A program made the position numbers and the translations under genes. From the IMG/VR virus record IMGVR_UViG_3300042198_000097, positions 1 through 26,905 of that record: 26,905 nt of DNA, one strand, 5' to 3'. This document shows positions 924 to 25,364 of the stretch, one piece after another. The stretch is from a virus. The notes beneath the pieces are model-generated. The model saw nothing but the letters and a program-made list of their open reading frames with translations. It was not told the DNA's origin and searched no databases. How positions within the stretch are numbered: position 1 is the stretch's first letter; the number at the start of each line of letters is the position of its first letter.

Positions 924-960
924 GGGGGTTGAGGAAAGGTAAATTTGCACACATACCAAA

Positions 961-1119
961 ATCTGCGCTACAATGATTGTGTACCGCAGTTCGGGCGGGA
1001 CTGTCTGAACACCAGACAGAAAGACTTATCCTGGCAAGGGAAAGTAAGCAGAAAGGTGACAATCTGCATAGATGTGCCGGAAAATTAAATGGCGCACCAT
1101 TGGGTAAGCCAATGGGAAC
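961..1119 (+). ncRNA. Structured RNA element, copy 1 (full length), HEARO/omega-RNA-like
   Basis: This is the most complete of four related elements. In order it shows: a basal stem CTGCG (963-967)/CGCAG (985-989); TTCGGGCGGGA; hairpin TGTCTG (1002-1007)/CAGACA (1013-1018) followed by GAAAGAC; a variable hairpin GCAGA/TCTGC around GGTGAC (1048-1067); TGTGCC (1073-1078)/GGCGCA (1091-1096) enclosing GGAAAAT.AAAT; and a terminal hairpin CCATTGG (1097-1103)/CCAATGG (1109-1115) closing on GTAAG and ending in GGGAAC. Stems change in a compensated way relative to copy 2 (GGCGCA against GGCACA, both pairing TGTGCC). The 3' segment TAAGCCA..GGGAAC resembles the 3' end of published HEARO/IscB omega RNAs as I remember them. 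A TACAAT box lies at its 5' end. It runs antisense to both flanking genes and has no downstream gene. Confidence 0.55.
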
Positions 1120-1127
1120 GCGTGTAA

Positions 1128-1565
1128 TCAAGAGACTACAAAATTAAACCCGCATGCACCGATTACCTTTGCGTCTGGAGTGTTGTAGCGTACTACCTTA
1201 TATGGTGTTACCAGCCACTTCATAAACTGGCTGGCTTTTCCTGTATTTGCTGCATGGTTGGCAAAAGTTAGGGAAACTATAAAGATAGTCGCGCTATCTA
1301 ACTTATCTTCCGGAAAAACTATTTCCCCATACTTACTTGTAACCGTAGGCACGCTAACTTCATCGTCTAGAAGTATAGTTGGGCCGACAGTGGATTTTAC
1401 GTCCACTCTGGCTACAATACCAGATACAGGGACAGTGAGAATAGGCTCTCCATATACTTGGTCTGCCTTCCAAATGCTAGTATTGGTTTTATCCTGCTTT
1501 AATCCCACAAACTGGGATTCTTTGTACAAGTAAAACGGGTGTGGGCATAAATTCATTATTTTCAT
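1128..1565 (-). CDS. Conserved phage protein of unknown function
   Basis: From ATG 1565 the protein has 145 residues. That start has AGGAAA about 7 bases upstream; an ORF start at 1598 is in frame but has no ribosome site. The protein starts MKIMNLCPHPFYLY and continues with SGIVARVDVK, a segment with PTVTSKYGEIVFPE, TIFIVSL and a C-terminal KVIGACGF. This pattern recurs in small phage and actinobacterial proteins of the form NLTPH...SG.VARV...V.T.FGEVE..P....TIYIVS...V..A and VIG..GF. No function is established that I know of. The predicted fold is mostly beta. No signal peptide or membrane segment is seen. Confidence 0.6.
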   Translation of the reverse strand: MKIMNLCPHPFYLYKESQFVGLKQDKTNTSIWKADQVYGEPILTVPVSGIVARVDVKSTVGPTILLDDEVSVPTVTSKYGEIVFPEDKLDSATIFIVSLTFANHAANTGKASQFMKWLVTPYKVVRYNTPDAKVIGACGFNFVVS

Positions 1566-11094: not shown

Positions 11095-11243
11095 GTTCCC
11101 ATTGATTGGTGTGCCATTTGATTTTCCGGCACATCTGCGTACAGCGTCACCGCTTGTACTTACTCCCATTTCGGAGAGTCTTTCTGCCTGGATGCCAGAC
11201 AATCCCGCCCGAACTGCGGTACTCTTGCAGTATAACGCAGGTT
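11095..11243 (-). ncRNA. Structured RNA element, copy 2 (full length)
   Basis: On the minus strand it repeats the order of copy 1: CTGCG...CGCAG stem, TTCGGGCGGGA, hairpin TGTCTGG/CCAGGCA followed by GAAAGAC, hairpin CTCC/GGAG, a long hairpin GTAC.AGCG/CGCTGTAC around GTGA, then TGTGCC/GGCACA around GGAAAATCAAAT, and GGGAAC at the end. Several helices differ in sequence from copy 1 but keep pairing, which is strong evidence for a folded RNA. It ends five bases before the start codon of gene L, in sense orientation. Confidence 0.6.
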
Positions 11244-13947: not shown

Positions 13948-14012
13948 GTTCCCTATTTGATGGTAGTAATCCCGCCCGAACTGCGGTACATTTTTATTGT
14001 AGCACAGATTTC
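13948..14012 (-). ncRNA. Structured RNA element, copy 4 (internally deleted)
   Basis: On the minus strand it has the 5' part of the element (AATCTGTGCTACAAT, then GTACCGCAGTTCGGGCGGGA) joined directly to the 3' end (ACCATCAAATAGGGAAC). The 90-base middle is missing. It forms the leader of the following tail gene, three bases before the start codon. Confidence 0.55.
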
Positions 14013-19990: not shown

Positions 19991-20890
19991 ATGGCTAAAC
20001 CCATTAAAAAATTGCAAAATCTGTTAAATCAGATACAGGTTGGAAATTCTTGGACTACGGGAGAAACCGCATTAGATAAAACGGAAGACCAAATCCGTAA
20101 TATTATTTTTGGGTGCCATCATGTTCCAGATACCGTTTGGGACGTTTGGGATTACAGTCCACCTAGTGCTTTGACTTATGCCCTAGATATCAATAACTCT
20201 AGGAAATATGCCTATAAAATAATAGAGATGCTTAAACGCTATGAAGATATGCCGTATAAGCAGATACATTATAAAAGTATATGTAAATTAGTGTGGTCTA
20301 TATTTCAGTATGATCCAGAAAGTGCGTGCAGATATCTAGCCACGATGCAACAAAGACAAGGTTTTGTACCAAGTTACTACGATGAATTGGTGCATCAACA
20401 TAAGAAGTTTGATGAAAAAGCCGGACTTAACAGTTTTTTCTCTTACAATGCAGATTTAGAGGAGGTAGGATTAGATGAAAGAGCTTTAATATTAGGCTTT
20501 TCTGACCTTAATACGCTAAATATTTTAAATGGTAAAAAAACCATAGAGCTACGTAAAAATAAACCACGGTTTTTGGATTTTGTGCTTATTTATAACCGTG
20601 AAACTAAACATATTGTAGGGAGCTTCAACGGGTCTTTGATTTGCAAAAAATCTATTAAAGACTGGGAGGAACTACAGACTGAGCTAAATATGTCTACTAT
20701 AGAAATAAGCAGCTACTTAAATGTTTACATGGGTTACGGGATTACAATTAAAAACGTTAAGAAGTTTGTAAAACCGATTCCCCATAGTGCTATACCGGGA
20801 TTTAATACTACTGCTGCCAACAAAGAGTTTCGCTATCTAAGTTCTAGTCAGATCAATTCCTGTCGTTCCTATCAAAGTTTTCTTGAATAG
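19991..20890 (+). CDS. ASCH-domain (PUA-like) protein
   Basis: The protein has 299 residues. The C-terminal half is an ASCH domain, a PUA-like beta barrel: LNTLNILNGKKTIELRKNKP (174-192) with the signature GxKxxExR, then FVLIYNRETKHIVGSFNGSLI, and YMGYGITIKNVKKFVKPIPHSAI near the end. ASCH proteins are thought to bind RNA or modified bases. The N-terminal 160 residues are helical and unrecognised (ALDINNSRKYAYKIIEML..., SACRYLATMQQRQGF). The start has GAGG eleven bases upstream. The neighbouring HNH gene lies in the same direction; the last codon overlaps the RNA element copy 3. It could regulate RNA or protect modified DNA, but this is open. Confidence 0.65.
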   Translation: MAKPIKKLQNLLNQIQVGNSWTTGETALDKTEDQIRNIIFGCHHVPDTVWDVWDYSPPSALTYALDINNSRKYAYKIIEMLKRYEDMPYKQIHYKSICKLVWSIFQYDPESACRYLATMQQRQGFVPSYYDELVHQHKKFDEKAGLNSFFSYNADLEEVGLDERALILGFSDLNTLNILNGKKTIELRKNKPRFLDFVLIYNRETKHIVGSFNGSLICKKSIKDWEELQTELNMSTIEISSYLNVYMGYGITIKNVKKFVKPIPHSAIPGFNTTAANKEFRYLSSSQINSCRSYQSFLE

Positions 20891-20955
20891 TGCGCCATTT
20901 AATCTTCCGGGTAATCTTACCAGAACTGCGGTACTCTCTTGTTGTAGCACAGATT
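20888..20955 (-). ncRNA. Structured RNA element, copy 3 (shortened)
   Basis: On the minus strand: AATCTGTGCTACAAC, then GTACCGCAGTTCTGGTAAGATTACC and GGAAGATTAAATGGCGCAC. The TGTCTG hairpin and the variable hairpins are missing, and a new small stem GGTAA/TTACC replaces them. It overlaps the stop of the ASCH gene and runs antisense to both the ASCH and HNH genes. The decay pattern differs from copy 4, indicating independent deletions. Confidence 0.5.
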
Positions 20956-20981
20956 TATTATCGTTGATCCAGGAGCTAAAC

Positions 20982-21311
20982 ATGACACAAAGTAACTACA
21001 ATGCCAGATACGGAAACCTGAAAAAGTATAAAAAACGCGTACACAAAGCGCATTTAAAGACTGGTGGACGCTGCTGCTGTTGCGGAATTAATCCTTCTGA
21101 AGAAATCCACCATACTAGTTACCGCAAGTCTGGAGATAAATATGGTATCAATATTTTCCCGGTTTGCAAACATTGTCATACCAAGATATGCCATTCTAGC
21201 GAGAACTGGATAAAGTCTAAGTCGGATCCAGTCTGGGGAAACCATAATACCAAGGATTTTACGGATTTACTGAAACTAAAATATAAGTTTTTGTACAAAA
21301 AAACCGGATAA
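20982..21311 (+). CDS. HNH endonuclease
   Basis: From ATG 20982, preceded by AGGAG seven bases upstream, the protein has 109 residues; a start at 20883 would read through the RNA element. It has the zinc-supported HNH core: CCCCG, EEIHHTSY with the general-base His pair, KYGINIFPVCKHCHTKICH. The Cys pairs flank the motif as in standalone HNH homing-type nucleases. The N-terminus is basic. Small HNH genes in phages often act in intron or gene mobility, or near terminase in packaging; here it sits between ASCH and the tail operon terminator. It is not an IscB protein, since no RuvC parts are present. Confidence 0.8.
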   Translation: MTQSNYNARYGNLKKYKKRVHKAHLKTGGRCCCCGINPSEEIHHTSYRKSGDKYGINIFPVCKHCHTKICHSSENWIKSKSDPVWGNHNTKDFTDLLKLKYKFLYKKTG

Positions 21312-22729: not shown

Positions 22730-23473
22730 TTAGCTAAAATCATCAAAGCAGAACGGTGGATACCACTCAAAATAGTCACCTTGGAACAGCAAGTTAAACG
22801 AAAATCTTTTAACTTCGTTTTGGTTAGCCGGTAGAGCCAAGTTACTTATTTTAGCTATCCCTGCAAAACGTTCACCGTCTGGCATTGTTACAGCTGCATA
22901 AATATCTCTACCATAAAGTAGATTGGAAAATATACCAACTGGTTTTATTATAGTCTCTAATGCCTTATCTCCAGTTAGTGCTATGCCACTAACGGTACAA
23001 CTTTTTGTCTGTCTAATAAAAGTATTTTTAACACCACGTCTAGTCCTAAAATCCGTAGTCTCTACCTGCACTTCTTGGGACGATAAATCTATAGCTTGTA
23101 CGCCATTCAACGGTATTACACCTTCTACTACTTCCGCTAAATCGCCTTCGTTTATTATGTGTAATAACGGGTATACTTCTACTTGTGTTTGTATGTTATC
23201 TATTGTTGTGTCATTAACTAAAATAGCTTGTTTCCTATACCCTGGCACGTACCCAAAGTTTGGGTCTCCAAAAGATAGGCATGTACCAGCTTTAAGTTCA
23301 ACATCAAAGAAACTGGAAAGAGTTAAATAGTTATATCCAATAGTAGAAGTAGCATTACAAAGTACCTCAAACTTCGGTATATCACTACTCGTCTCTCCAG
23401 TTACTTCGTTTACTGGTAGTAGTTTGACCTCTAAACAGCAACCGTTTAGAGGTTGAGGGTTTAACCAGTCCAC
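22730..23473 (-). CDS. Third major-tail-protein paralogue
   Basis: From GTG 23473, with AGGAGGG upstream, the protein has 247 residues. It aligns with the two upstream paralogues: KAGTCLSFGDPNF, PLNGVQAIDLSSQEVQVETTDFRTRRGVKNTFIRQTKSCTVSGIALTGDKALETIIKPVGIFSNLLYGRDIYAAVTMPDGERFAGIAKISNLALPANQNEVKRFSFNLLFQGD. It is the most divergent of the three: it lacks the common MPLATASQILQDYSLE N-terminus and carries extra Cys near its ends. Possibly a specialised tail subunit. Confidence 0.7.
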   Translation of the reverse strand: MDWLNPQPLNGCCLEVKLLPVNEVTGETSSDIPKFEVLCNATSTIGYNYLTLSSFFDVELKAGTCLSFGDPNFGYVPGYRKQAILVNDTTIDNIQTQVEVYPLLHIINEGDLAEVVEGVIPLNGVQAIDLSSQEVQVETTDFRTRRGVKNTFIRQTKSCTVSGIALTGDKALETIIKPVGIFSNLLYGRDIYAAVTMPDGERFAGIAKISNLALPANQNEVKRFSFNLLFQGDYFEWYPPFCFDDFS

Positions 23474-23490
23474 ATTAATGCCCTCCTGTT

Positions 23491-24585
23491 TTAAGCGGTT
23501 CTAAATGTCCAAGAATTATCATCTATGCCAGCAAACCCAACTACAGCAGTAGGACTGATTAACACATAATAATCTGTATTACCAGTTAAGTTTGAGGTGG
23601 GGTCAATAGTTAGTGTGTCGTTAGCAACAGTTGTTGTGGTACGAGTCAAAGCAGTAGTTATAGTTGTTGCTGGATTGCTTGCTAATACTATAGTTGCAGT
23701 TCCAGCGCCAAGTGTGATAGCTTGGTTAAACTGTGCAGTTAAATTAGCACTTACCACAAATCCAGTGCCATTCACGTCTGGTGTTAAGTCAATAATGAAT
23801 GGACTACTGTAGTCGTAGGGCGTATACCAGGCAAAAGTCCTACCTTGATAAGTAAGCGTAAAACTATACTTTTTAACTTCGTTTTGGTTAGCAGGAAAGT
23901 TAAGGGCAGTAATTTTAGCAAACCCTTCAAAACGCTCACCGTCTGGCATGGTAGCAACTGCAAAAACTTCACGTCCAAACAAATATCCATCAAAAGCACC
24001 AACTCGTTTGACTATAGTTTCAAGTCCTTCGTCACCCGCCAAAGCAACGCCAGAAATAGAGAAACTTTTAGCAGTGCGCACTATTGCTGTTTCTGTACCA
24101 GCTCCAGAACCAAAGTGAGTTGTATCTACCATGGTTTCTTGGTTAGCCATATCCATTGTCTGAATACCACTTAAAGGTATTAACCCTACAATAAAATCAG
24201 CTATAGCGCCAGCTTGTATAGGTCTAGACAAAGGGCTTATAGTAATAGAGCTTGTACTAGAATCAGTTAAAGTAACGTCGTTTAAGACAATAGCTTGTTG
24301 ACGAATTTTAGCAAACACCAATGAAGGAATTTGTGTTGGTGCGTCAGACGAAAAAGATAATGCGGTTCCAGCTTTGATAACGGTATTACCAGTAATTGTG
24401 CCACCTGTATTAGTGTTAGCACGTACTGTAAGCGTACTAGCTCCAACTGGATTACTAGTAGAAGTGACGGTAATAATGCGTCTAGTTACAGAACGACTAG
24501 TTGTACCAAAAGTCGCATTTATACCAGGTAGGGCTAACTCCAGGCTGTAATCCTGGAGTATTTGTGATGCGGTAGCTAAAGGCAT
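23491..24585 (-). CDS. Major tail protein paralogue with C-terminal Ig-like domain
   Basis: The protein has 364 residues. Its first 250 match the gene at 24615 closely (MPLATASQILQDYSLE start; LSGIQTMDMANQETMVDTTHFGSGAGTETAIVRTAKSFSISGVALAGDEGLETIVKRVG; FPANQNEVKKYSFTLTYQGR). The last 110 residues (IIDLTPDVNGTGFVVSANLTAQFNQAITLGAGTATIVL..., NLTGNTDYYVLISPTAVVGFAGIDDNSWTFRT) are a bacterial Ig-like (Big_5/SbsA-type) domain. Such domains decorate tail tubes and are thought to touch the host surface. GGAG precedes the ATG. It forms a tandem duplication with the gene upstream. Confidence 0.8.
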   Translation of the reverse strand: MPLATASQILQDYSLELALPGINATFGTTSRSVTRRIITVTSTSNPVGASTLTVRANTNTGGTITGNTVIKAGTALSFSSDAPTQIPSLVFAKIRQQAIVLNDVTLTDSSTSSITISPLSRPIQAGAIADFIVGLIPLSGIQTMDMANQETMVDTTHFGSGAGTETAIVRTAKSFSISGVALAGDEGLETIVKRVGAFDGYLFGREVFAVATMPDGERFEGFAKITALNFPANQNEVKKYSFTLTYQGRTFAWYTPYDYSSPFIIDLTPDVNGTGFVVSANLTAQFNQAITLGAGTATIVLASNPATTITTALTRTTTTVANDTLTIDPTSNLTGNTDYYVLISPTAVVGFAGIDDNSWTFRTA

Positions 24586-24614
24586 ATTAAACTCCTAAAC
24601 TCCTATAAACTTAA

Positions 24615-25364
24615 TTAGGCAAAAGCTGTATAGGGTTGAGTCCAAGTAAATTGTCTACCTTGGAATGCAAGCGTGAAACTATACTTTTTAACTTCGTTTT
24701 GGTTGGCAGGGAAGTTTAACGCATATATTTTAGCTACGCCTTCCAGCCTTTCTCCATCAGAAAAAGTAGCAGCAGCATAAATTTCACGGTTAAACAAGTT
24801 GCCAGCTAAAGCACCAACGGGTTTAATGACTGTTTCAAGTGCTTCGTCAGCCGCTAAGGCTACACCAGATACGGAGTAGTTGCGGTTTACTCGTACTAAA
24901 GCGGTTTCAGTACCAGCTCCGGATAGGAAGTGTGTAGTATCTACCTGAGTTTCTTGGTTGTTTAAGTCAAGAGTTTGGATACCAGTTAAAGGCAGAAGTC
25001 CAGGAATAAAACTAGCTGTAGCAGCTGCTGTAGCGCTATTATCTCCACTAATAGAAATTCTACGAGACAAAGGTGCTATATTGACAGAAGTTGCGGTAGT
25101 GGCTATCGACTTGTCTTCTAGGATTACCACTTGAGTTCTAAAAGCTTGTCCAGTTGCTTTAAATGATAATACGTTTCCAGCTTTTAAGTTAGTAGCTGTA
25201 CTTGCGGTAATAGAAATACTAGTAGCTCCTACATCAGCATTAGCTGTAACAGTAAAAGTAACGGAAGTAGTAGTTCTGTTAGAAACACCAAGTGTATTTA
25301 AAGGTAATAATAAAACTTCTAAACTGTAATCTTGTAAAATTTGAGATGCGGTAGCTAATGGCAT
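24615..25364 (-). CDS. Major tail protein (tube)
   Basis: The 249-residue protein has the same layout as the next two genes and is the basic form, without an Ig domain. The centre LTGIQTLDLNNQETQVDTTHFLSGAGTETALVRVNRNYSVSGVALAADEALETVIKPVGAL and the C-terminus FPANQNEVKKYSFTLAFQGRQFTW are shared. These fit the beta-barrel major tail proteins of siphophages that stack into the tube. It has its own promoter (25388-25416), so it can be highly expressed, as expected of a tube subunit. GGTGAAAT lies before the ATG. Confidence 0.75.
   Translation of the reverse strand: MPLATASQILQDYSLEVLLLPLNTLGVSNRTTTSVTFTVTANADVGATSISITASTATNLKAGNVLSFKATGQAFRTQVVILEDKSIATTATSVNIAPLSRRISISGDNSATAAATASFIPGLLPLTGIQTLDLNNQETQVDTTHFLSGAGTETALVRVNRNYSVSGVALAADEALETVIKPVGALAGNLFNREIYAAATFSDGERLEGVAKIYALNFPANQNEVKKYSFTLAFQGRQFTWTQPYTAFA

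Follow-up and report, generated by a model that had tools for sequence, protein, structure and literature searches.

Which protein does the structured RNA that recurs in this viral DNA work with, and what might it do for the phage? The window, by which we mean the whole stretch of 26,905 nucleotides analysed here (IMG/VR record IMGVR_UViG_3300042198_000097), is a viral contig, and an earlier note had read its positions 961 to 1,119 as an RNA resembling the HEARO/omega RNAs of the IscB family. Our results point to a different partner: the element is very probably a tracr-type guide RNA of the nuclease Cas12p, with a fused single-guide layout.

Copies, fold and covariation of the RNA

Inspection of the sequence and blastn showed that one structured RNA occurs four times in the window, twice in near-complete and twice in decayed form; with copy 1 as the query, blastn found copy 2 at E 1e-21 and copy 3 at E 1e-10. 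The copies and their parts are as follows.

945-974, plus strand: sigma70-like promoter of copy 1, predicted from the sequence, with TTGCAC (945-950), an 18-nt spacer and TACAAT (969-974)
982-1119, plus strand: copy 1; the RNA proper begins near 981
982-1096, plus strand: predicted tracrRNA core of copy 1, with hairpins at 984-998, 1001-1019, 1024-1045, 1048-1067 and 1073-1096
1097-1119, plus strand: fused anti-repeat/repeat stub of copy 1, with CCATTGG (1097-1103), loop GTAAG (1104-1108), CCAATGG (1109-1115) and GAAC
1120-1145, plus strand: putative guide of copy 1, running antisense to the ORF at 1128-1598 at that ORF's 3' end
11095-11221, minus strand: copy 2, a compact sgRNA-like form with its GGGAAC end at 11095
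From 11094 downward, minus strand: putative guide of copy 2, spanning the start codon of the gene for tail protein L
About 13948-13988, minus strand: copy 3, internally deleted, a weak match to covariance model R1 (E 0.09)
About 20886-20956, minus strand: copy 4, with an internal deletion that joins the promoter and first hairpin to the last hairpin

The range 961-1119 comprises the promoter-like -10 (TACAAT, 969-974) and the RNA. The upstream region is kept in most copies, the best promoter-like form (TTGACA-N17-TATAAT) being found at other copies, and the RNA would be transcribed from this promoter of its own during infection. At the site of copy 3, contigs L007 and L009 have an intact counterpart, upstream of a gene beginning ATGGCTTCAATC. 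Since two of the four copies in the window are decayed, selection is not acting on all of them.

A small HNH endonuclease ORF (20883-21311, plus strand) has a listed TTG start that reads into the remnant of copy 4, which makes the ATG of MTQSNYNARYG the probable true start; being a short generic HNH, it was rejected as a partner of the RNA. Elsewhere in the window, at 22752-25029 on the minus strand, diverged direct repeats (63-73% identity) run over three adjacent tail-protein-like genes.

For copy 1 the folding energy is -48.7 kcal/mol (z -5.16), a value reached by none of 200 shuffled sequences, and z for copy 2 was -3.0. Among 37 distinct copies and relatives, aligned by fitting to the model, which favours pairing, 97.0% of the paired cells did pair against 76.7% after shuffling, two-sided changes occurred at 21 of 30 pairs, and the covariation score was 0.439, far above the shuffled (0.143) and slid (at most 0.071) controls. 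The structure of the RNA scaffold is supported by this covariation, and model R1, of which copy 1 is itself a part, scored that copy at 125.4 bits (E 2e-27). The compensatory stems pointed out in the earlier note, TGTCTG/CAGACA against TGTCTGG/CCAGGCA and GTGCC with GGCGCAC or GGCACAC, are thus real, and its view of a conserved multi-copy structured RNA, on the plus strand for copy 1, holds on the copy number, the fold z and the covariation alike.

The probable Cas12p partner and its CRISPR loci

The window is 99.8% identical to the Cylindrospermopsis phage Cr-LKS4 over 25.4 kb and 96-99% identical, in blocks, to phage CrV-01T. Each of these two complete phages carries about a dozen dispersed copies of the RNA, decayed and long variant ones counted, and each encodes a homologue of Cas12p (PDB 9JFS), g64 in Cr-LKS4 and gp061 in CrV-01T, the latter annotated as a 'transposase'. 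This 668-aa Cas12p-like protein of the sister phages is 48% identical to Cas12p of PDB 9JFS; the phmmer match of gp061 to it has an E of 2.6e-157 over residues 1-634, and the RuvC residues D387, E503 and D608 are kept in every homologue compared. Nuclease and RNA are therefore encoded in the same phage type, with the gene lying not inside the window itself but just outside its edge (in CrV-01T about 4 kb from copy 1, past the left edge). The earlier expectation that the copies depend on a protein encoded elsewhere is in this sense confirmed, that protein being an RNA-guided nuclease. With an alignment of the two proteins as the query, we found Cas12p in 13 viral contigs and in two cyanobacterial genomes, those of Sphaerospermopsis kisseleviana NIES-73 and Nostoc paludosum FACHB-159; among 218 genomes from the host's family, few encode it.

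Model R1, whose training set consisted of CrV-clade copies only, matched directly 3' of cas12p in 13 of 13 Cas12p loci outside the clade (L029-L041, E 7e-14 to 8e-7), some of these contigs being near-identical to one another. A CRISPR array starts a few hundred nucleotides past cas12p in L030-L041, and the sequence of L029 ends before that point. In the RNA next to cas12p, exemplified by TACCGCAGTTTGGGCGGG...GGCGACAACCCCCAAAGACCAGCCGGAACTATGGCTGGCA, the stems are altered yet still pair. The last hairpin is followed by an anti-repeat that pairs with the repeat of its own locus, at -44.3 kcal/mol in L034, -33.8 kcal/mol in L035 and -26.9 kcal/mol in CrV87922 (0 of 200 shuffles in each case); 1 of 200 shuffles did as well for L041 and 2 of 200 for L036 and for CrV6856, while by the same test the pairing was weak or missing, and not significant, in L030, L032 and L040. 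The matches beside cas12p, the covariation and the anti-repeat pairing together argue that the element is the Cas12p tracrRNA. On this comparative evidence we conclude that the repeated RNA is the multi-copy tracrRNA of the phage's own Cas12p, to which its scaffold would bind. Eight pattern matches (L006, L010, L012, L014 and L016-L019) were rejected as unrelated chance matches.

Variants of the element also occur in the sister phages. Four long stretches of CrV-01T (L022:7305-6675 and 24945-24171 on the minus strand, 38458-38890 and 40561-41060 on the plus strand) carry the tracr 5' domain, mostly with a different last hairpin, and extend 400-770 nt to the next gene or element. In CrV-01T as in Cr-LKS4, one such stretch immediately precedes cas12p and is possibly an autoregulatory leader. 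In Cr-LKS4 (L026:7623-8512), the gp062 gene is partially duplicated and a single-guide-like element stands between the two parts.

The fused layout, its alleles and the rival readings

The CRISPR repeat of the CrV arrays, GTTGGGAACGGGTGGAGAAGTTAGGTCAATGGGAAC, has a 3' end in common with copy 1 (...GGTCAATGGGAAC in the repeat, ...GCCAATGGGAAC in copy 1). Copy 1 ends in CCATTGG-GTAAG-CCAATGGGAAC, where the distal anti-repeat is joined to the distal repeat by a 5-nt loop; the stub folds into a perfect 7-bp stem, keeps only the distal 7 nt of the anti-repeat, and is equivalent to the distal stem of tracr and crRNA and to the 3' end of the repeat in the phage CRISPR arrays. The segment TAAGCCA..GGGAAC, taken earlier as HEARO-like, is this repeat end fused to the anti-repeat stub. 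Flanking DNA begins straight after the GGGAAC of copy 1, at the place where the arrays have spacers. Scaffold and repeat end are joined in one RNA, with a guide position, in copies 1 and 2 and at the nine sites in the clade where the fused form is compact and GGGAAC is intact; these measure 119-138 nt from their start to GGGAAC, with a short or imperfect closing stem in some cases.

We propose that the element is a shortened tracrRNA copy to which the 3' end of a CRISPR repeat has been attached, hence a natural single-guide RNA, that the RNA folds into the scaffold and binds Cas12p, that the 20-odd nucleotides past GGGAAC act as the guide, and that the complex would recognise DNA identical to the downstream flank. 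Related phages without the element at that site would then be open to binding or cutting, and the phage's own copy may be spared because the element parts the flank from any PAM. This working function of the flank is put forward tentatively, from the layout of the RNA, as a possibility that we would stop short of calling probable. The putative guide of copy 1 has its cis site as the sole match in CrV-01T and Cr-LKS4, and for the putative guides as a whole no trans target was found, the matches being confined to the cis flank and to the allelic empty sites of sister phages. Other copies (CrV6856, CrV87922, L011b, L020 and L027a) have a longer anti-repeat and a mini array, which they would serve in the ordinary two-RNA way.

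These last copies fit the reading that competes best with ours, namely that all of the elements are ordinary tracrRNA copies that provide an extra dose for the mini arrays, the fused GGGAAC being what is left of a vanished array and the flank never serving as a guide. The decay of spare copies such as 3 and 4 would also be expected if so. Against it stand the nine sites where the compact fused form has kept GGGAAC intact, and the stub of copy 1, whose perfect stem and short loop make it no obvious relic; we regard this alternative as rather unlikely.

The insertions are polymorphic. Copy 2 is absent from CrV-01T (39506-39510) and from contig L009, and in the filled allele the switch to the flank falls exactly after GGGAAC. 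The element of contig L070 is missing at the allelic site of Cr-LKS4, where GTCATTTT adjoins AGTCAGATTCTACC cleanly, without target duplication. At this empty site the guide-matching flank is preceded by TTTT, which is like a type V PAM, whereas AACGC, which is not PAM-like, precedes the flank at the empty site of copy 2, and for this reason homing of the RNA elements is rated as possible but not supported. In its fullest form, homing would make the solo RNAs selfish elements mobilised in trans by Cas12p and placed between a T-rich PAM and the DNA named by the guide: Cas12p would cut the element-free alleles of co-infecting sister phages and repair would copy the element in, a CRISPR-derived gene drive among the phages of a population. 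We consider this clearly unlikely.

Two further candidates for empty sites were set aside: L027a against L028/L072, preceded by TTT, where the alignment shows a decayed copy, and the right junction of L011 (TTTT before it in CrV-01T), which was not counted as its left side is rearranged. In L011 (12284-13230), two tracr elements enclose a gp024-like gene in inverted orientation, and the CRISPR-repeat ends there are inverted as well (GTTCCCAT...ATGGGAAC); a cassette has apparently been turned round.

What do the spacers of the arrays match? One spacer common to CrV-01T (L022:40448-40484) and Cr-LKS4 (L026:39521-39557) is antisense to the tracr element; its best match, at 35 of 37 positions and with GGTT before it, is in contig L020; in CrV-01T and Cr-LKS4 themselves, the copies differ at more positions or lack that flank. 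A spacer of L030 (5398-5433) matches cas12p of related phages, with TTTG or CTTG before the match, and also its own cas12p with one mismatch. Three cases, TTTT at the empty site of Cr-LKS4 and TTTG and GGTT here, would hint at TTN as a common PAM. Spacers directed against the tracr elements and cas12p of relatives would fit a conflict between related phages. Otherwise, searches for spacer targets gave low-complexity matches or none in the phage collection, in the 218 host-family genomes, where no host target was found, and in two exact scans of viral contigs. The arrays differ between CrV-01T and Cr-LKS4 and therefore turn over.

Another reading is that of a decoy in the manner of the Racr-like RNA anti-CRISPRs: the solo RNA would occupy and block Cas12p, whether of rival phages, of prophages or of the host. 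Solitary CRISPR-repeat RNAs are known as anti-CRISPRs in phages, according to work cited in PMC11656645, and Cas12p is present in other cyanophages and in two cyanobacterial genomes. The RNA keeps a full scaffold and a guide position, though, and because the same phages encode the nuclease a decoy would block their own system, which makes this explanation very unlikely. A slightly smaller chance is left to a purely cis-acting element, a mobile promoter or leader that acts on neighbouring phage genes and has no part in Cas12p function: there is a promoter-like stretch at each copy, and start codons lie no more than about 15 nt from the ends of copies 2 and 3, but no sense gene lies directly downstream of copies 1 and 4, and the covariation and the homology to the RNA at cas12p loci would be left unexplained.

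There is practically no chance that the element is a HEARO/omega RNA of an IscB/IsrB system, a reading based on a superficial resemblance, since in the window, CrV-01T and Cr-LKS4 the model RF02033 had no match, neither by cmscan (E<=5 and E<=10) nor by a direct search (E<=10), and RRXRR (PF14239), the domain of IscB/IsrB, was found in 0 of 3 records at E<=1, the RNA standing instead at loci of the type V effector Cas12p. The window does lack an IscB/IsrB gene, as had been stated, and the wider search suggested at the time found none in either complete sister phage; the phage of the window itself is known as a fragment, for which the 99.8% identical Cr-LKS4 stands in. No other Rfam family rose above its gathering score in CrV-01T, and otherwise there were only weak chance matches.

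Relation to known systems and meaning for the phages

Single-guide RNAs for Cas nucleases are usually seen as engineered, the tracr-L of Cas9 being a natural case. Tracr-L is a natural single-guide RNA of Streptococcus pyogenes Cas9 (PMC11417352), and the phage RNA resembles it as a tracr-derived RNA with a built-in guide. It differs from this type II RNA in being type V, multi-copy and dispersed, in having its guide position in the 3' flank, and in that no promoter target was found for it. With the Cas12p CRISPR systems (PDB 9JFS/9JG3) it shares the effector family (48% identity) and the tracr scaffold; in the systems of other phages and two cyanobacteria the tracr lies beside cas12p and the array, unlike the clade of CrV-01T and Cr-LKS4, with its dozen or so dispersed copies, several of them fused single guides.

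A type V effector and an array are also carried by the cyanophage vB_AphaS-CL131, whose array was described as type V-U2 (C2c8), with no tracrRNA reported (PMC6293099). The CL131 effector is a true C2c8, at 450.8 bits against the NCBIfam cut-off of 350, whereas gp061 stays below it at 172.4 bits, and the system described here is therefore not the V-U2 system of that paper; in the part of the CL131 genome that was scanned (L024), R1 had no match. The layout, one RNA with a guide position provided by the DNA flanking the element, is that of the omega RNAs of TnpB and IscB, from which the phage RNA differs by its homology to CRISPR tracrRNA and the lack of IscB. Virus-borne mini-CRISPR arrays have been linked to interviral conflict (PMC6858448, as cited in PMC11656645). 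As in that account, the arrays are short and reside in viruses, here with spacers that match tracr elements and cas12p of relatives; in difference to what is related there, the phage also carries the effector and the tracrRNA.

The structure of Cas12p is already known; what appears to be new is the variant with dispersed, natural single-guide copies. No description of them was found in a literature search that covered a minority of subscription journals and did not extend to the genome paper of CrV-01T (Environ Microbiol 2019;21:1942-56, cited in PMC10811720). If our reading is right, about a dozen dispersed, promoter-bearing tracr and single-guide copies within a single phage clade would represent a type V counterpart of such guides that occurs in nature, and would explain how a virus could work with several guides while lacking a long array. 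Tests are feasible, since phages (CrV-01T and Cr-LKS4) have been isolated for the host, a cyanobacterium that forms blooms, and these elements would allow a direct test of whether CRISPR guide RNAs spread as mobile elements, like the RNAs of TnpB and IscB.
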